Of a stretch of 39,560 nt of DNA, positions 8,353 to 38,812 are shown piece after piece (the stretch's first letter is position 1; each line of letters opens with the position of its first letter). A program made the translations under genes and the position numbers. Source of the DNA: Betaproteobacteria bacterium (GTDB lineage Bacteria > Pseudomonadota > Gammaproteobacteria > Burkholderiales > Casimicrobiaceae); contig JAPUER010000073.1 of assembly GCA_027492485.1 (NCBI GenBank), positions 1-39,560 of the forward strand, written 5' to 3'. Under the pieces are notes generated by a model, which saw only the letters and a program-made list of their open reading frames with translations, searched no databases and had not been told where the DNA came from.

Positions 8353-11300
8353 ATGTTTTCTTGTGTACTCGCGTTTTTCAACCCGGTCTTGCCGCGGTCG
8401 GCGCGTGCATCGATAGTGCGTCGGGTTGCGCTGCTGGTCTGCGCATTTACCTGTGTGGGCGTCACGGCCCACGCAGCGGGCTGGGGTCCAGCGGCGAGCA
8501 TGGCAACGTCCAGCCAGTCGCACACCGCCACCCTGCTGCCCTCGGGCAAGGTGCTGGTGGCAGGGCGCGGCAGTCCGAACGGGAGCACCCCCGTCGCCAG
8601 CACCGAACTCTATGACCCGGCCAGCAACACCTGGAGCAGTGCCGGCAACCTCACAGCCGCGCGGCTCGGCGCCACGGCCACGTTGCTGGCTTCCGGCAAG
8701 GTGCTGCTGGTCGCGGGCGCCGGCAGCAGCGGTTTCCTCAACAGCGCCGAGCTGTATGACCCGGTCAGCAACGCCTGGAGCAGTGCGGGCAACCTCACCA
8801 CGGCGCGCTACGGCCATACCGCCACGCTGCTGCCATCAGGTAAGGTGCTGGTCGTCGGCGGCAACAATGGCGCCGCATTGGGTAGTGCCGAACTTTATGA
8901 CCCCGCCACCAACACCTGGAGCGGCGCCGGCAACCTCACCACGGCACGCACCAGTCACACCGCCACGCTGCTGCCCTCGGGGCGGGTGATGATCGCCGGC
9001 GGTGCCGCCTCACTCAGTGGCGTTGCGTTCAACAGCGTCGAAATCTATGATCCGTCGGGCAATTCCTGGGCTGCTGCGGCAAGCTTCACCACGGCGCGCA
9101 GCCTGCACACCGCCACCCTGCTGGCCACTGGCAAGGTGCTGCTCGCCGCCGGAATGACCACCAACGGCGGTGCCGCACTGAACAGTGCCCAGCTTTACGA
9201 CCCGGTCAACAACACCTGGGCCGCGGCCGGCAGTCTCATCGACGCACGCGCGTTCCACACGGCGACCCTGCTGCCGTCGGGCAAGGTGCTGGTGGCGGCG
9301 GGCTTCGGATTGTCCAGCACCGAACTCTATGACCCCACCACGAACGCCTGGAGCAGCGCAGGCAACCTTTCGACCACGCGGATGTATCACACCGCGACAC
9401 TGCTGGCCAACGGCAAGCTGCTGGTCGCCGGCGGAACAACCACCTTCGGCGGCAGTTCGTTGAACAGCGTCGATCTCTATGACCCGGCGGGCAGCACCTG
9501 GTTTGTTGCCGGCACGCTTGCGACCGCGCGCGCCGCACATACCGCCACCCTGCTGACCTCCGGCAAGGTGCTCGCGGCGGGCGGTGGCAGCAGCGGCGGG
9601 GTCCAGGCCAGTGCCGAGCTTTATGCCCCGGCGACCAATTCGTGGAGCAGTGCCGGTGTGTTGGGTGCTGCGCGCCGCACCCACACCGCCACGTTGCTTG
9701 CGTCCGGCAAGGTGCTGGTCGCTGGCGGGCACAACGGCAGCGCGGCCTTGAGCAGCGCGGAGCTTTACGACCCTGCCACCAACACGTGGAGCGGCGCCGG
9801 ATCACTCGCCACGGCGCGCTACCAGCACACTGCCACGCTGCTGCCCTCGGGCAAGGTGCTGGTGGCGGGCGGCTTGGTTGCCACGAACCCGCTGAGCAGC
9901 GCCGAGATATACGATCCGGATACCAACACCTGGAGCGCTGCCGTCGCCATGACGCAGCAACGCTACGGGCACACGGCCACGCTTCTGCCGTCAGGCAAGG
10001 TACTGGTCGCCGGCGGCGCGGCGAACGTCGTCGGCACACCGCTTAACACTGCCGCGCTTTACGACCCGGTGGCCAACACCTGGGCGGCGGCAGGTTCCCT
10101 CGCCGCCGCGCGTGCCCAGCACAGCGCAACCTTGCTGCCGTCCGGCAAGGTACTGGCCGCCGCGGGCACCGGCAGTGCAAGCACGTATCTGTCCAGCGCG
10201 GAACTGTACGACCCGGTGACCAACACCTGGGGTTCGGCGGGCTCGGGCGCCTTCTCGCGCTCCCTGCACAGCGCGACGCTGCTGCCCTCCGGCAAGGTAC
10301 TGATCGTCGGGGGCAACAACGGCGGCACAGTGCTCGACAACGCCGAACTCTACGATCCGGTCGGCAACACCTGGAGCGACGCGGGCACGCTCATGAGCGC
10401 GCGCTATTGGCACACCGCGACGCTGCTGCCGTCGGGCAAACTGCTGGTCGCTGCCGGAAATGGCAGCAGTCAGGTTGCCACCGGCAGCGCCGAGCTCTAC
10501 CTCGAGGACTTCGGCGTCAACGACGCCCGTCGCCCGGTGATCGCCACAGCGACCAATCCGGTCGTACCCGGCGGCAGCATCACCTTGAGCGGCACCGGCT
10601 TCACGGGGGACAGCGAAGCCTCCGGTGGCGGCAGCAACAGCAGCGCAACCAACTACCCGCTGTTGCAATTGCGTCGCGTCGACAGCGAACAGGTGATCTG
10701 GGCAACGCCGGCAAGCGGTAACACCCGCTCGGCAACGGTCTACCAGAGCGCCGCGCTGTCCAGCCTGGTCAAGGGTCAGTATGTGCTCTCGGTTCTCGTC
10801 AACGGGATCGCCAGCGCTTCCACCATGATCAACATTGGCGTTAGCGGCCAGACCATCAGCTTTGGCTCAGCCCCGACCATTGTCTTTGGTGGCACCGGTA
10901 CGGTCACCGCCACCGCCACGTCTGGCCTGGCGGTCACCTACAGCACGTCGAGCCCCGCCTGCACCGTCAACCCAAGCTCGGGGCTGGTGACCGCAGTCGC
11001 CGCCGGAACCTGCGTCATCGCCGCCAATCAGCCCGGCAACTCGGCCTACGCCCCGGCACCGCAGGTAACGCAAAGCATCACCATCGGCATCGCCAGCCAG
11101 ACCATCAGCTTCGGCGCCTCGCCGGCGCTGGTGGTGGGTGGCAGCGGCAATCTCGGCGCCACCTCCGACAAGGGGCTGGTGCCGGTGACGCTTGTCAGCA
11201 CCACGCCGTCGGTGTGCAGCGTCTCCGGCAACACCGTCACCGGCCTCAGCGCCGGTGTTTGCACTATCCAGGCGAACCAGGCCGGCAACGCCAACGTCAC

Positions 11301-17808: not shown

Positions 17809-18357
17809 TCATACGATCCGCCCGCCGCGCTGCCGTATTTTCCGCTTGGCGAGCAGTTCCGGCGCCAGCGCGCCCAGGCCCTGGCGCGAGTGCGCGTGAG
17901 TGATCGCGGTGGCGAGCGCGTCGGCGGCGTCGGCCTGCGGCGTGGCGTCGAGCTTGAGCAGCCGTTTGACCATTTCCTGCACCTGTTCCTTCGCCGCCTT
18001 GCCGTGGCCGACTACGGCCTGCTTGACCTGCAGCGCGGTGTATTCGTGCACCGTGGCGCCGGCGAGCACGGCGGCCGTCATCGCCGCGCCGCGCGCCTGA
18101 CCGAGTAGCAGCGTCGACTGCGGATTGACGTTGACGAACACCTTTTCGACGACGACATCGTCGGGCTTGTGCTGCGCGATGATGCTCTGCACGTCCTGGG
18201 CGATCGTCAGCAGCCGCTCGGGCAGCGTGCCGGCGTCGTCCGTCCTGATGCAGCCGCTGGCGATGTAGGCGAGCGCGTTGCCGCGCTGCGCGATGAGGCC
18301 GAAGCCGGTGCTGCGCAGGCCGGGGTCGATGCCGAGGATGGTGCGGGCGCTATTCAA
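17809..18357 (-). CDS. ruvC: Holliday junction resolvase RuvC
   Basis: Endonuclease that resolves Holliday junctions after RuvAB migration. The 182-residue product has the catalytic acids of the RNase H-like fold: D in [15 protein letters not shown] in [10 protein letters not shown], and the Asp pair in [15 protein letters not shown]. The only usable start near the catalytic motif is TTG 18357, with no visible Shine-Dalgarno. A palindromic repeat begins 6 bases upstream at 18363, so the ribosome-binding region appears to have been replaced by repeat sequence. Frame and motifs are otherwise intact. Confidence 0.94.
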
Positions 18358-18362
18358 TCTGT

Positions 18363-18423
18363 GGGAGCGGCCTTGGCCGCGATTGTGTGGGTACAGCCGG
18401 GAATCGCGGCCAAGGCCGCTCCC
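18363..18423. repeat. REP-like inverted repeat, family 1, copy 1
   Basis: Each arm begins GGGAGCGGCCTTGGCCGCGA and the two 22-bp arms (18363-18384 and 18402-18423) are perfectly complementary around a 17-base spacer. Further copies lie at 30430-30497 and 37759-37841. This copy fills most of the gap between the YbjQ-like gene and the ruvC start. Confidence 0.9.
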
Positions 18424-18435
18424 GCGAGGCGTCCA

Positions 18436-18780
18436 CTACATCTTCACCGCGGTGCCGCTGACGGCCACCATCATCATGCCGTTGGTCTCGCCGAGCACTT
18501 CGTAGTCGAAATCGACGCCGATGATGCCGGTGGCGCCGAGTTCCTTTGCGGCCGCGATCATGTCTTCCAGGGCCGCTTCGCGCGCGCCCGCGAGCGAGCG
18601 CTCGTAGCCGCCGGCGCGGCCACCGACCACGTCGCGCACCGACGAAAACATGTCGCGGAAGATGTTGGCGCCAATGATCGCCTCGCCGTTGACGATGCCC
18701 AGACACTGGCTGGCCTCAATGCCCGGCGGCGTGATCGTGGCGAGGAAGAAACCGTCGTCTTTTTTCGAGAACCAGCCCAT
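18436..18780 (-). CDS. YbjQ/UPF0145-type heavy-metal-binding-domain protein
   Basis: A 114-residue protein of the YbjQ family (putative heavy-metal-binding domain; structures of relatives are pentameric rings). Visible family segments are NGEAIIGANIFRDMFSSVRD, GRAGGYERSLAGAREAALED and GATGIIGVDFDYEVLG. ATG 18780 is preceded by AGGAG at a 6-base spacing. It lies 13 bases downstream of the yebC-type gene. No function is established for the family. Confidence 0.88.
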   Translation of the reverse strand: MGWFSKKDDGFFLATITPPGIEASQCLGIVNGEAIIGANIFRDMFSSVRDVVGGRAGGYERSLAGAREAALEDMIAAAKELGATGIIGVDFDYEVLGETNGMMMVAVSGTAVKM

Positions 18781-29810: not shown

Positions 29811-30041
29811 GAAATCGTCAACCTGTACGAAGCCAAAACCAATCTCTCGCGCCTAGTCGATCAGGCCAACGCGGGCGAGCACATCGTGATCGCAAAGGGC
29901 GGCAAACCAATGGCACTGCTGACGCCGCTCACGCCCAAAAAGCGCACGATCCGCTATGGCATGATGAAAGGCCAGTTCACCGTGCCGGCCGACTTCGACG
30001 CGCCGTTGCCCGACGAGATCATCGGCGCATTCGAGCGATGA
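29808..30041 (+). CDS. Phd/YefM-type antitoxin
   Basis: A 77-residue antitoxin. It reads EIVNLYEAKTNLSRLVDQAN then GEHIVIAKGGKPMALLTPL, the characteristic Phd/YefM DNA-binding fold. The C-terminal segment (GQFTVPADFDAPLPDEIIGA) is the probable toxin-binding tail. GTG 29808 with GGAGGT upstream is the chosen start. The stop overlaps the toxin start as ATGA. Autoregulation through the upstream dyad is likely. Confidence 0.9.
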   Translation: MEIVNLYEAKTNLSRLVDQANAGEHIVIAKGGKPMALLTPLTPKKRTIRYGMMKGQFTVPADFDAPLPDEIIGAFER

Positions 30042-30415
30042 ACCTGCTGCTCGACACCCATTTTTTACTGTGGATCGCCAACGGCGACCCGCGCCTCACC
30101 GCAAAAGCCAGAAAAATCATTTCGGCGGCAGACGCCGTACACATGTCGGCCGCATCCCTATGGGAAATTTCCATCAAGGTGGGCATCGGCAAACTCGCCG
30201 TCGACGTCGACGCCCTTGCCGAATGTCTGGATGCCGCCGGTTTGATCGAACTGCCGGTGACGATCGCGCACGCCCGGACACTTAAATCGTTACCCAATCA
30301 TCATCGTGACCCGTTCGATCGTCTGCTCGTCGCGCAGGCGATGACCGAGCCGATGTATCTATTGACAGCAGACGCGGGGCTTGCGGCGTATGGTGCCGTC
30401 GTGAAGTTGATCTGA
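30038..30415 (+). CDS. PIN-domain toxin (VapC-like)
   Basis: A 125-residue PIN-domain protein, probably an RNase toxin paired with the upstream Phd-like antitoxin. D6 in MNLLLDTHFLLW, the E in SAASLWEISIKVGIGKL, the D residues in HHRDPFDRLLVAQA and LTADAGLAAYG supply the acidic site. It belongs to the subgroup of PIN proteins coupled to Phd-type antitoxins and is not closely similar to the PIN protein at 15701-16099. Target RNA unknown. Confidence 0.92.
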   Translation: MNLLLDTHFLLWIANGDPRLTAKARKIISAADAVHMSAASLWEISIKVGIGKLAVDVDALAECLDAAGLIELPVTIAHARTLKSLPNHHRDPFDRLLVAQAMTEPMYLLTADAGLAAYGAVVKLI

Positions 30416-30429
30416 TGCCATTGCGTTGC

Positions 30430-30497
30430 GGGAGCGGCCTTGGCCGCGAATCGTCGTGGCGCTCGGGTGCCGAACTGTCGCGACCAAGGCCGCTCCC
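30430..30497. repeat. REP-like inverted repeat, family 1, copy 2
   Basis: GGGAGCGGCCTTGGCCGCGA (30430-30449) is complementary to 30478-30497 at 19 of 20 positions, with a 28-base spacer. It fills the convergent gap between the vapC-like gene and panB, where it could act as a bidirectional transcript end. Confidence 0.88.
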
Positions 30498-30516
30498 ACG
30501 GCCATAGGAGTCGGCG

Positions 30517-31347
30517 TCAATACCCGTGCAGCGCGTTGTCGGGAAACGTTCTTGCTTTCACGTCCGTCACATACGCGCCAATCGCCGCTTCGACGCTGCC
30601 GTGTCCGGTCATGAAATTTTTTACGAAGCGCGGCAGCTTGCCGCGGGTGATGCCGAGCATGTCGTGCAGCACCAGCACCTGGCCCGAGCAATCGACGCCG
30701 GCGCCGATGCCGATAGTGGGAATTGGCAGTATACGAGTGACCTCGGCGGCGAGCGTGGAGGGGATCAGCTCCAGCACCAGCAGCGCGGCGCCGGCGTCGG
30801 CCAGCTCGCGCGCATCTGCCTTGAGCGTCGCGGCGGCGGCATCGGTCTTGCCCTGAATGCGATAGCCGCCCAGCGCGTGCACCGACTGCGGCGTGAGGCC
30901 GAGATGCGCGCAGACCGGGACGCCGCGTTCGGTGAGGAAGCGCACCGTTTCCGCCGTCCAGCCACCGCCTTCGAGCTTGACCATCTGCGCGCCGGCCTGC
31001 ATCAGCGTGGCCGCGCTCGCCATCGCCTGTTCGCGCGACTGCTGATAGCTGGCGAACGGCAGGTCACCGATGACAAACGCCGTGCGATTGCCCGTTGCGA
31101 CGCAACGCACGTGATAGGCCATCTCCTCCAGCGTCACCGGCAGCGTGCTCGACCGCCCCTGCAGCACCATGCCCAGCGAATCGCCGACCAGCAGCATCTC
31201 GACGCCCGCATCGTCCGCCACCCGCGCAAAGCTGGCGTCGTAGCAGGTGAGCATGGTGAGTTTTTCGCCACTCGCGTGCAATTCGCGCAGGCGATGCAGG
31301 GTGAGCGGTTTGCGGCCAGTCGCCGGGTCCGGAGGATGAACAGACAT
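30517..31347 (-). CDS. panB: 3-methyl-2-oxobutanoate hydroxymethyltransferase PanB
   Basis: Makes ketopantoate from 2-oxoisovalerate and methylene-tetrahydrofolate in pantothenate synthesis. The 276-residue protein has [20 protein letters not shown], the metal-binding [57 protein letters not shown] and [18 protein letters not shown], all PanB landmarks. ATG 31347 gives the expected N-terminus. panC and panD are not adjacent in the window. Confidence 0.96.
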
Positions 31348-31385
31348 TCGTGCAATGGGTTGCGATGGAGGAGCACAATTATGCG

Positions 31386-31418
31386 GGCGTCCGGTGTCGC
31401 TCGCCGGCACCGGACGCC
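31386..31418. promoter_or_regulatory. Perfect 11-bp inverted repeat in the divergent panB / protease region
   Basis: GGCGTCCGGTG (31386-31396) and CACCGGACGCC (31408-31418) are exactly complementary around 11 bases. The dyad lies 34 bases before the plus-strand protease start and 38 bases before panB. It could be an operator, or a hairpin in one 5' leader. Confidence 0.5.
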
Positions 31419-31452
31419 GTCTTACTCCTTTAACCACTCGCTGGAGTCGACC

Positions 31453-32310
31453 ATGCAACTGCGCCTGTTACACAACGCCCAAAGCCGCGATTCGACGCTG
31501 ATGCCGATGAACGACCGCATGCTCCACCTGATACTGCATTTCAAAATCCAGCTCGTCCGCTGCGAACCCACCACCCACTTCAACGCGGCGAGCGCCTATT
31601 GCACCGGCAACGGCATCCTGCACGCCGACCACTACCGATTTCACCTCGAGACCTGGTCCGACCAGGAGTGGAACGAATTCAGCCGCAACTTCGCCAGCAT
31701 CATCACCCGCTATTGGGACGACAAATTCGAGCTCACGCCCAATCAGCCCTGGTATTCGCCGCGGCCGAACGTCACCACACCGGCGGCCATCGCCTGCCAC
31801 CTGTCGCTGCAGCTGGTCGCGACGGCCGCTGCCGCGCACCACCGCTACTACATCATCAAGCCGCACGAGGACTTCTTCCGCTCGTTCGCAGCGCCGAGCC
31901 TGCGCCTGGCCCTGCTCACCCATCGCGATCTGGCTTACGACTTGCGCGATCGCGCGACGAGGATCGGCGGCGAGCGGCACCGTGTGACTTATCTGCAAAG
32001 CGCGGCACTGCACGAGTTCGGTCACACGCTCGGCCTCGATCACGTCAATGGCTCGGGTAACAACGGCGCCGCCTATGGCGTCTCGCTTGAGCAACGCGAG
32101 GACCTGATGGGCATGGGCGTTCATATGACCGCACGGCACGCACAACCCTGGCGCTCGCAGTTGCAGCATCACCTGATCCCCGGCCACAACCGAAGCGACG
32201 CCGCGCTGCGCTTCACCGCCCGCGTCACCGCGCCGCAATTGATCACCTACTGGGACTACGACTGGCACCCGCTCGCCGCAGCAGCCGCCGGCCGCGCGGC
32301 GCATCCCTAG
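31453..32310 (+). CDS. Putative stand-alone metzincin-like zinc metalloprotease
   Basis: A 285-residue protein of unrecognised family. [11 protein letters not shown] at residues 187-197 matches the extended zinc motif HExxHxxGxxH, with H187, H191 and H197 as ligands and E188 as the general base. A Met-rich DLMGMGVHM (about 217-225) follows and could be the Met-turn. No signal peptide or transmembrane segment is visible, so the protein may be cytoplasmic or exported another way. ATG 31453 is preceded by GGAG at 6-base spacing. It stands alone on the plus strand, divergent from panB. Substrate unknown; other zinc enzymes remain possible. Confidence 0.75.
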
Positions 32311-36053: not shown

Positions 36054-36878
36054 TTAGCCACGCAACCGCTTGACGATTTCGGCCGTCAGCGGCGCCTGAT
36101 TCATGGTGTAGAAGTGGAAACCGGGTGCGCCGCCTGCATCGAGGCGTTCACACAATGCGGTGACGATGTCCAGGCCAAATGCGCGCACCGATTCCGCGTC
36201 GTCACCAAAGTCAGCCATGCGCCGAGCAATCCAGCGCGGGATTTCAGCGCCGCACATTTCTGCGAACCGCGCGACCTTGCTGAAATTGTGCAGTGGCATG
36301 ACGCCCGCGATGATCGGCAGCGTGACGCCCATGCGGCGCGCGGCGTCGACGAACGCGAAATACGCGTCAGCATTGAAGAAAAATTGCGTCACCGCAACGT
36401 CGGCACCCAGATCCTGTTTCGTTTTCAATGCACGCAGATCGGCTGCAGCGCCAGTCGCCCGTGGATGCACTTCGGGATAGGCTGCGACGTTCAGCTTGAA
36501 ATGGTCGCCAGTTTCGGCCCGGATGAACGCGACGAGATCGCTGGCATAACGAAATTCGCCACTCGCAACCATGCCCGATGGCGGATCGCCGCCAATGGCC
36601 ACGATGCGGCGAATCCCTTGCGCACGGTAACCCGTGATCAACTCGGCCACACCCGCACGCGTCGCGCCCACGCAGGAAAGATGCGGCGCCACGTCGGCAC
36701 CCAGTGCCTGTACGGCGCTCACCGTGGCGATCGTCTTGTCACGAGTCGAACCGCCAGCACCGTAAGTGACGCTGAAGTACTGCGGTGAAAGCGTCATCAG
36801 CGTTTGGGTGACGACGAGCAGCTTGTTTGCGCCCTCGGGCGTGTTGGGCGGGAAGAATTCGAAGGAGATGTTGTTCAT
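36054..36878 (-). CDS. metF: 5,10-methylenetetrahydrofolate reductase MetF
   Basis: FAD enzyme that makes 5-methyltetrahydrofolate for methionine synthesis. The 274-residue TIM-barrel protein begins MNNISFEFFPPNTPEGANKL with the catalytic-glutamate motif. It has VTYGAGGSTRDKTI, HLSCVGATRAGVAEL, RIVAIGGDPPSG and AVTQFFFNADAYFAFV. ATG 36878 is exact. It belongs with ahcY in the same transcriptional direction, matching the methyl-cycle cluster of betaproteobacteria, though a repeat-filled gap separates it from the next gene upstream. Confidence 0.96.
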   Translation of the reverse strand: MNNISFEFFPPNTPEGANKLLVVTQTLMTLSPQYFSVTYGAGGSTRDKTIATVSAVQALGADVAPHLSCVGATRAGVAELITGYRAQGIRRIVAIGGDPPSGMVASGEFRYASDLVAFIRAETGDHFKLNVAAYPEVHPRATGAAADLRALKTKQDLGADVAVTQFFFNADAYFAFVDAARRMGVTLPIIAGVMPLHNFSKVARFAEMCGAEIPRWIARRMADFGDDAESVRAFGLDIVTALCERLDAGGAPGFHFYTMNQAPLTAEIVKRLRG

Positions 36879-36922
36879 CGGGAGGGCGTAGGGACGAATG
36901 TAGTTATCGGTATCCGTTGCCT

Positions 36923-37027
36923 GTCGTCCCCGCGAAGGCGGGGACCCAGACCGGGAGTCGGTTGCGGACACCACGACAGGCGGGCGGGCAAGCTGCCGGG
37001 GCTGGATTCCCGCCTTCGCGGGAATGA
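36923..37027. repeat. Pair of inverted hairpins, family 2, upstream of metF
   Basis: TCCCCGCGAAGGCGGGGA (36927-36944) and TTCCCGCCTTCGCGGGAA (37007-37024) are two hairpins in opposite orientation, separated by about 60 bases. The outer parts GTCGTCC/CTGGATTC are repeat-like. The layout resembles a bacterial interspersed mosaic element and fills the gap between the TfoX-N gene and metF. Confidence 0.75.
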
Positions 37028-37052
37028 CGGCTCGTGGTGATCATGGCGGCGA

Positions 37053-37445
37053 TCAGGACCGGGCCTTCGGCTTGCCCTTGCCCGCCGCCGCGCGCAGCGC
37101 CGCGCCCCACGCCAGCTCGGCCCAGGGCTTCATCAGCGCAGACGACTCCATCACCTCCGGCGGCACCGTGTAATAGCCCATCGTGCGCAGCTTGCCGTCG
37201 GACTCGTAGGTGAAGATCGCGCAGCCGGCCTTCTCGAACGCCGCACGCGATTGGTCGTCGCCCTTGAGCCAGAGCTGGTCGAAGGCGATGATTGCAAACG
37301 TCTTGCCGTCCATCGAGAAACCGGTGCCGCCGAACATGCGGCGCGCTGCGATGCCCGCGATACCGCCGCGCGGTGCGATCGGTGACAACAGCTCGATGCA
37401 GTAGTCGCGGAACTCGTCGGCCGCGGCGCGCGATGGTTTGCTCAT
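37053..37445 (-). CDS. TfoX N-terminal domain protein
   Basis: A 130-residue protein consisting only of the TfoX N-terminal domain. It contains IAARRMFGGTGFSMDGKTFA, FDQLWLKGDDQSRAAFEKAG and MGYYTVPPEVMESSALM. It lacks the C-terminal half of competence regulators such as TfoX/Sxy, so a regulatory role cannot be assumed. ATG 37445 overlaps the tlyA stop as ATGA, indicating coupled translation. The upstream extension of the open frame is not coding. Confidence 0.88.
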   Translation of the reverse strand: MSKPSRAAADEFRDYCIELLSPIAPRGGIAGIAARRMFGGTGFSMDGKTFAIIAFDQLWLKGDDQSRAAFEKAGCAIFTYESDGKLRTMGYYTVPPEVMESSALMKPWAELAWGAALRAAAGKGKPKARS

Positions 37446-38278
37446 GGTTTCCCGGCGTAGACGAAGAACTCGCGGTTGCCGTCGCTGCCCGTGATCGGGC
37501 TGGCGAACCAGTCGAACACGGTGAGGCCTGCCGCAGCGCAAGCGGCGCAGATGTCGCGCTCGACCACGGCGTAGAGCGACGCATCGCGCACGATGCCGCC
37601 ACGGCCGATGTTGTCGGGGCCAACCTCGAACTGCGGCTTGACCAGACTCAGCACGCGCCCGCCCGCCCCGAGCAGGGCGGGCCATTGCGGCAGCACCTTG
37701 GCGAGCGAGATAAAGGAGACATCGGCGACGATCAGGTCGAAAGCCGCCGCCGGTTCGCTGTGGGAGCGGCCTTGGCCGCGAACTGCCGGAACTTGCGGTG
37801 ATGTCTCGACATGAGCATTCGCGGCCAAGGCCGCTCCCACAAACGTCGATACATCGATTGTTCGTGCGTTCACGCCCTCGATGCAGGTCACACGCGGGTC
37901 GTTGCGCAACGACGGGTGCAACTGGTCGTGACCGACGTCGACGCCGGTCACCTGCGCCGCGCCGCGCCGCAGCAGGCAATCGGTGAAACCGCCGGTCGAT
38001 TGGCCGACGTCGAGGCAGCGCAGGCCCGTTACGTCAAGCCGTGTGCGGTCGAGTGCGCCTTCGAGCTTGAGTCCGCCGCGCGAAACATAGCGATCGAGTT
38101 CGCTCGCCTCGACCTCGATGGCAACGTCGTCATCCAGCGTGACGCCCGGCTTGGTCAGTGCGACGCGTGTGCCCTTGCAGCCGACGCGCGTGTAGACATG
38201 GCCGCCCGCGATCAGGCGCTGCGCGGCCGTGCGCGAAGGCGCCAGGCCCCGCTCGACGAGCAGTACATCGGCACGCAT
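37442..38278 (-). CDS. tlyA: TlyA-family rRNA 2'-O-methyltransferase with repeat insertion
   Basis: TlyA-type protein with an N-terminal S4 RNA-binding domain (RADVLLVERGLAPSRTAAQR) and an FtsJ-like methyltransferase domain. GLRCLDVGQSTGGFTDCLLR is the SAM-binding loop and DLIVADVSFISLAKVLP is motif IV. TlyA relatives methylate 16S/23S rRNA. The 278-residue frame is interrupted in phase by about 28 residues, beginning VGAALAANAHVE and ending GQGRSHS. They are encoded by a 24-bp-arm palindromic repeat (37759-37841) between GVNARTID and the motif IV strand. The frame stays open and all core motifs survive. Whether the protein remains active is unknown. Confidence 0.9.
   Translation of the reverse strand: MRADVLLVERGLAPSRTAAQRLIAGGHVYTRVGCKGTRVALTKPGVTLDDDVAIEVEASELDRYVSRGGLKLEGALDRTRLDVTGLRCLDVGQSTGGFTDCLLRRGAAQVTGVDVGHDQLHPSLRNDPRVTCIEGVNARTIDVSTFVGAALAANAHVETSPQVPAVRGQGRSHSEPAAAFDLIVADVSFISLAKVLPQWPALLGAGGRVLSLVKPQFEVGPDNIGRGGIVRDASLYAVVERDICAACAAAGLTVFDWFASPITGSDGNREFFVYAGKP
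37759..37841. repeat. REP-like inverted repeat, family 1, copy 3, inside tlyA
   Basis: The 24-bp arms 37759-37782 and 37818-37841 are perfectly complementary and each contains GGGAGCGGCCTTGGCCGCGA (20 bases, or its complement). The 35-base spacer differs from those of the other two copies. It is read through in frame by tlyA. Confidence 0.95.
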
Positions 38279-38675: not shown

Positions 38676-38812
38676 CCTCTCCTGCTGCGGAGAGGCTTTG
38701 ACCCCTCCCCCTTCAAGGGGGAGGTTGGGAGGGGGATGGGGGTCCGTTGCTTCACGCTGATCTGTGCAGTTAAACCCCATCCCCACCCTGACCCTCCCCT
38801 TGAAGGGGAGGG
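38676..38812. repeat. Composite C/G-rich foldback between ahcY and the small membrane protein gene
   Basis: Three hairpins are visible: CCTCTCC/GGAGAGG (38676-38695), CCTCCCCCTTCAAGGGGGAGG-type (38704-38724, arms plus short loop) and CCCTCCCCTTGAAGGGGAGG (38792-38811). A GGGGATGGGG near 38735 can also pair with CCCCATCCCC near 38775. The whole 137-base block is nearly all paired. It lies in the 176-base gap inside an otherwise co-directional cluster. Confidence 0.8.

Follow-up and report, generated by a model that had tools for sequence, protein, structure and literature searches.

The window examined here is the whole of contig C73, 39,560 nucleotides long, of genome G000, an assembly of 4.12 Mb in 83 contigs. 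It carries a tlyA gene whose open reading frame continues without a stop codon through a palindromic mobile element, together with further elements of the same family and a repeat of another kind. These features are as follows:

37442..38278, minus strand: tlyA, encoding an S4 and FtsJ-type rRNA 2'-O-methyltransferase of 278 residues with an intact frame (domain matches; fold match to TlyA 7s0s_B, TMq 0.79)
37759..37841, no strand: REPIN of 83 nt, a pair of REPs in inverted orientation within the tlyA reading frame, coding for about residues 147-173
37759..37782, plus strand: REP arm 1, a GTGG tag followed by a GCGGCC-tt-GGCCGC hairpin
37783..37817, no strand: REPIN spacer of 35 nt, which differs from the spacers of the other copies in the window
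37818..37841, minus strand: REP arm 2, a perfect inverted copy of arm 1
18360..18426, no strand: REPIN of the same family as that in tlyA, between ORF 17809-18357, which from its translation we take to be ruvC-like, and ORF 18436-18780
30427..30500, no strand: REPIN of the same family as that in tlyA, between ORF 30038-30415, presumably PIN-domain-like, and ORF 30517-31458, presumably panB-like (both names from the translations)
38708..38808, no strand: repeat of the CCCCTTCAAGGGG kind; the part 38773-38815 matches at 86% the repeat nested in the tlyA REPIN of genome G010

Elsewhere in the window, positions 8598-10450 are taken up by thirteen direct repeats, each about 144 nt long and diverged (63-76% identity to the reference copy), and an imperfect palindromic repeat (CCCGCGAAGGCGGG ... 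CCCGCCTTCGCGGG, positions 36923-37028), the arms of which are 82% complementary, adjoins a metF-like ORF. The product of the latter (36054-36974) shares 79% identity with its counterpart in G008 and only 60% with that in the near relative G005, a pattern of similarity that is the reverse of that of the neighbouring genes and would be compatible with a possible gene exchange.

The segment 37759-37841 is a REPIN, a mobile element that is not autonomous and consists of a pair of REPs in inverted orientation. Its two arms (TGTGGGAGCGGCCTTGGCCGCGAA), 24 nt each and 100% complementary, are separated by 35 nt, and each consists of a four-base tag and a short hairpin, as in REPs of the GTAG type; the tag found here, GTGG, is a reported variant in one REP family (PMC3733652). 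Within the gene, the element starts with the third base of codon 146 and ends with the first base of codon 174. The RNA of the coding strand folds at -70.1 kcal/mol (z -7.4, equalled by 0 of 200 shuffles) and the arm core has 78 matches in the G000 genome at up to three mismatches, against four for the reversed control, which together argue that the palindrome is not the product of chance. The two other REPINs of this family in the window, at 18360-18426 and 30427-30500, lie between ORFs. As a preliminary description of this DNA had pointed out, they have their arms, not their spacers, in common with the tlyA element.

A search of 64 genomes of the family for tlyA gave 15 matches, all of them among the 17 genomes of the genus, where G009 and G017 had no match. 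Counted in residues from EGVNAR to ADVSFISL, the loop that holds the REPIN measures 45 in G000. It is short (13-22) in eight of the 15 genus genes (G005 17, G012 19, G018 13, G016 13, G007 19, G014 22, G015 15, G020 15) and has 31-59 residues in the six remaining ones, of which that of G019 is truncated at the 5' end, where its contig stops. The description of a perfect inverted repeat with 24-bp arms, in frame in tlyA and adding about 28 residues, is thus borne out by the 45-residue stretch of G000 as against 17 and 19 in G005 and G012. From named genomes, 80 tlyA loci were sampled, 79 of which were readable (L134 was dropped) and seven of which proved to be contigs of genus members; in the 72 others the loop has 15-25 residues in 62 cases and 95-99 in 10, nine of these titled Acidovorax and one Gammaproteobacteria. 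The 14 relatives compared have a similar gene order near tlyA, some of their contigs ending close by, and a tfoX-like neighbour was not found in four of these 14 (G011, G014, G015 and G020).

Outside the loop, the tlyA of G000 is 83% identical to that of G005, 81% to G012, 80% to G013 and 69% to G014. A tree of five genes, comprising tlyA minus its loop and four neighbouring genes (metF was excluded because its similarity pattern is unlike that of the others), groups G000, G005, G012 and G014, all short-looped but G000, with a support of 99.2/96; G000, G005 and G012 form a group within it (92.6/89), the branching order among the three not being resolved. When built from tlyA alone, the tree has poor resolution, with stars on 5 of its 17 inner branches, and the loop labels as a whole do not cluster clearly on it (a value as low arose in 45 of 200 shuffles). 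The two trees conflict in the placement of G010, found with G018/G016 in the tlyA tree (99/96) and with G008/G006/G007 in the five-gene tree (89.4/69). With the reading frame preserved, the segment missing in the nearest relatives G005 and G012, an arm that is a multicopy REP, and REP-associated transposases encoded in the genome, the proposal of an insertion finds support, and the short loops of G005, G012 and G014, which group with G000, make the insert of about 28 codons specific to the G000 lineage.

The same loop holds REPs of other families in related species. The DNA of the loops was compared with REPIN templates for eight REP families, and every other equally long window of a given locus served as a control; the families were picked after viewing the loops, and their independent copies elsewhere in the genomes are the safeguard. 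The G000 loop scores 48/48 with family F1 (control maximum 44, the other window REPINs included). Family F2 (GTGGGAGCGGCGGAAGCCGCGA) is matched by the loops of G013 (42/48) and G019 (40/48), with a control of 29 in both; it occurs elsewhere in these two genomes, and the G013 loop matches 49 places in G019 and 9 in G013, chiefly via its first arm. The loop of G010 scores 41/46 (control 27) with family F3 (GTAGGAGCGGCTTGCCGCGA), and its REPIN spacer holds a nested second repeat, chiefly through which a search with this loop found matches in 10 of 17 genomes, the window segment 38773-38815 among them. In G008, the loop scores 37/46 (control 29) with family F4 (GTAGGAGCGGCTCTGCCGCGA), and exact F3 and F4 arms are present in the genome. 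The G011 loop matches F3 weakly, at 34/46 (control 29) with a right arm of 14/23, and the G011 genome contains no exact arm of the F3/F4 pattern. The long loop of G006 was rejected as a REP, its score being no better than the control; the loops of G005, G012, G007 and G014 score below the highest control, and those of G018, G016, G015 and G020 are too short for template scoring.

The palindromes of these other-family REPINs have decayed to different degrees, so that the inserts look like a series of ages, with G000 fresh, G013/G019 and G008 older, G011 very old and G010 nested. The comparison argues for at least three, and probably four, independent entries of REPINs into the tlyA loop of this genus. 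We therefore favour, with a probability of roughly 0.86, a reading in which a REPIN inserted recently in the tlyA of G000 and REPINs of several families have landed recurrently in this loop, the frame being kept during decay. The preliminary description was right in seeing a mobile element made coding, and it missed the other REP families in the same loop of related species.

A single ancestral REPIN in the genus, precisely lost many times and with its arms rewritten by gene conversion from the REP pool of each genome, would be in keeping with insert starts that lie within 12 nt of one another in a common codon phase, with an F3 that G010 and G011 may have in common, and with a G013 tlyA that, outside the loop, is about as near to G000 (80%) as the tlyA of G012 is (81%). 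It requires, however, several exact in-frame losses (in G005, G012, G014, G018/G016 and G007), and the arms F1-F4 differ in hairpin core and length, with spacers that look unlike except in G013/G019. In view of arms that come from different families, and of the short-looped genes placed between the others on the tree, we consider a single ancestral insertion unlikely.

Recurrent landing in one loop has been accompanied by a constant phase. The six tlyA REPINs start 17-29 nt past EGVNAR in one codon phase, in which an intact arm reads V-G-A-A and the first arm of G000 gives VGAALAAN. When events are counted by gene and family (nine rows, selected after seeing the data), eight of the nine are in the V-G-A frame, which in this post hoc test corresponds to P = 0.004 for eight or more (frame odds of 1/3 or 1/2); tlyA taken alone gives 4/4 and P = 0.028. 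The REPIN core of G013/G019 has a dS of 0.25 and a dN of 0.24 (pS 0.21, pN 0.21), and its flanks have a dS of 1.1-1.2 and a dN of 0.06-0.08 (pS about 0.6, pN about 0.07). In these two loops (L208/L213), the core evolves at a uniform rate, slower than the adjacent synonymous sites (p = 7e-4). The near equality of dN and dS suggests that the peptide of the insert is free to vary while the frame is kept, and the best reading is that of a tolerated, near-neutral peptide derived from mobile DNA.

The lower synonymous change in the G013/G019 insert than in its flanks is not predicted by plain neutrality and, together with the great stability of the hairpin in G000, it could speak for an insert selected for function, be it that of a hairpin in DNA or mRNA, by way of gyrase, mRNA stability or ribosome pausing, or that of a new protein surface. 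That the palindrome has decayed in G013, G019, G008 and G011 though the frame persists, that dN is close to dS in the one insert tested and that 8 of 15 relatives are without an insert all stand against such a function, which we regard as very unlikely.

The protein itself bears on a further explanation, namely decay of tlyA, with the insert as one sign of it, as the preliminary description had envisaged alongside that of an exposed loop without loss of function. Both the S4 and the FtsJ domain of TlyA are found in the G000 protein, which scores below the two curated NCBIfam cut-offs for TlyA (178.2 against 185.8 for TIGR00478 and 167.6 against 250 for NF049952), each match being broken into two stretches; the sequence alignment with TlyA 7s0s_B breaks at the REPIN-bearing loop. 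The K-D-K-E catalytic tetrad of TlyA (PMC3072309) corresponds, in the assignment made here, to K71-D186-K214-E270, which is invariant across 38 aligned sequences. The AlphaFold model has a mean pLDDT of 88.8, a helix at 143-155 that includes VGAALAANA, and a sole segment with pLDDT below 50, at residues 159-174; an exposed loop fits this model, in the form of a helix extension and a disordered loop. Because the first arm prolongs a helix and the remainder is a disordered loop, the enzyme very likely still works. Apart from the scores below the cut-offs, decay could draw on a dN/dS outside the loop of 0.14 for G000-G005 and G000-G012 versus 0.10 for G005-G012, and on an insertion that looks recent, perhaps too recent for signs of decay to have accumulated. 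These ratios are nonetheless well below 1, the lineage-specific residues number 17 in G000 versus 12 and 16 in G005 and G012, the tetrad is intact and the fold is confident. The pseudogene reading was rejected on the tetrad, the model and dN/dS, and decay as a whole appears most improbable. An assembly artefact is scarcely credible: a repeat present in many places can be mis-assembled in a genome of 83 contigs, but the frame is exactly preserved and REPINs lie in the same loop of other species, one of them common to G013 and G019.

Among the REP elements read in G000, 33 of 42 are pairs, with spacers of 0-58 nt. Such repeats are normally intergenic, as had been stated, and this agrees with the 42 elements (F1/F6 type), of which at least four are in frame in real genes, namely tlyA, putA, a short-chain dehydrogenase and the linker of dihydrolipoyl acyltransferase (E2). 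The count derives from Pfam searches of 10 chosen ORFs and from the survey of these 42 elements of F1/F6 type, in a genome that also carries 87 F3/F4-type matches; a single arm with two mismatches inside an aldehyde dehydrogenase ORF (L201) was excluded as probable chance.

In putA, compared in 17 copies from 16 genomes (G009, a partial match, was omitted), REPs occupy the same loop in five copies: F6 in G000 (42/48), F4-type in G005, G013 and G017 (43-44/46), and one F6-type arm in G019 (22/24). All five read V/A-G-A. No convincing REP was found in the other 12 of the 17 copies, which include pairs marginally over control in G007 (30 versus 27) and G008 (27 versus 26) and single arms in G011a, G011b, G007 and G016. 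The putA loop of G017 (L226, G017:C475) has a REPIN with an in-frame stop codon. The insert in the short-chain dehydrogenase of G000 is absent from G005, G012, G014 and G013; its exact boundaries and a target-site duplication were sought, and the relatives were too diverged for either to be found. For the E2 linker, an initial motif search gave no REP, and scoring gave an arm of 22/24 in G000 (control 15), weaker arms in G009, G016 and G008, and in G010 an arm of 21/24, below its own locus control of 22. Across L243-L259, REP-like arms in this Ala/Pro linker are clear in G000 and less so in G009/G016/G010/G008, and the linker as a recurrent REP site is only suggestive.

The presumed mover of REPINs is a RAYT transposase. 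The G000 genome has three Y1_Tnp loci, and the two tested are both over the NCBI curated cut-off for REP-associated tyrosine transposases. RAYTs, for which the preliminary description had proposed to look, are thus present in the genome, but the F1 arm in its exact form was not found at the flanks of any of the three loci. A RAYT with REPs of one family at its flanks was found for F2 in G019 and, at one of the three loci, for F3 in G000. At L196 (G000:C74, 1944-2493), a RAYT gene lies between inverted GTAGGAGCGGCTTGCCGCG REPs, a family that occurs in the tlyA of G010.

For the recurrent landing of REPINs in tlyA, we propose that a RAYT-type transposase would move the element into a surface loop between the third methyltransferase strand (EGVNAR) and motif IV (ADVSF), where its length and phase have preserved the reading frame. 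Insertions that break the frame or the fold would be lost and those in frame, in the phase that codes for a small-residue helix, retained, as the shared phase suggests; afterwards, the palindrome erodes by point mutation, with the frame staying intact. Tolerance of the loop, rather than targeting, is probably the main cause of the recurrence.

In-frame REPs are already known. Di Nocera et al. (2013; PMC3733652) describe GTAG REPs located within genes, note that over half of these REPs form dimers or groups that code for 20-30 residues, suggest that intragenic REP peptides are flexible linkers or loops, and report that recB has different REPs at about one position in X. campestris and in X. oryzae. 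The tlyA element resembles that system in being made of GTAG-type REPs within a coding gene, and differs from the cases in its main text in that a single loop has received at least three families, with graded decay, a common frame and a nested repeat; the words 'methyltransferase', 'hemolysin' and 'proline' are absent from that main text. With the REPINs and RAYTs of Bertels and Rainey (2011; PMC3116915) it shares the inverted REP doublet, the spacer hairpin and the presence of RAYTs, some REP-flanked, in the genome; those REPINs are, in the sections of that paper on which we draw, treated in extragenic space, whereas the tlyA REPIN lies within a coding frame and no F1-flanked RAYT was found. 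Rickettsia palindromic elements are likewise palindromes in frame in likely functional genes, according to the main text of PMC3733652, and are unlike the present case in repeat family and organism group.

The Acidovorax-type TlyA also has the same loop expanded, to 95-99 residues in 10 of the 72 non-genus relatives. A REP origin was rejected there, the longest perfect inverted repeat being 7-8 bp in the three checked. In L102, L109, L133 and seven other loci, the insert of this type, of about 80 residues, is similar across species and non-palindromic in the three checked. Among the literature results listed, no title dealt with REPs in tlyA or putA, though this does not prove that no such work exists. 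The recurring pattern of one loop and one frame is the new part, and it comprises the number of families in a single loop, the decay series, the common frame, the nesting and the second gene.

Mobile repeats that are translated have mostly been regarded as isolated curiosities. The tlyA loop seems to be a site at which such DNA has landed again and again and been turned into protein, and its series of inserts, together with putA, opens the questions of how protein sequence arises from mobile DNA, at what speed the palindrome disappears and whether the frame is set by selection. In a broader and more tentative reading, to which we give less than even odds, REPINs would be a recurrent source of new loop sequence in the genus, with tlyA, putA and perhaps the E2 linker as true hot spots, and the V-G-A-A frame would be favoured as harmless and helix-friendly, the REP being in effect pre-adapted to translation.
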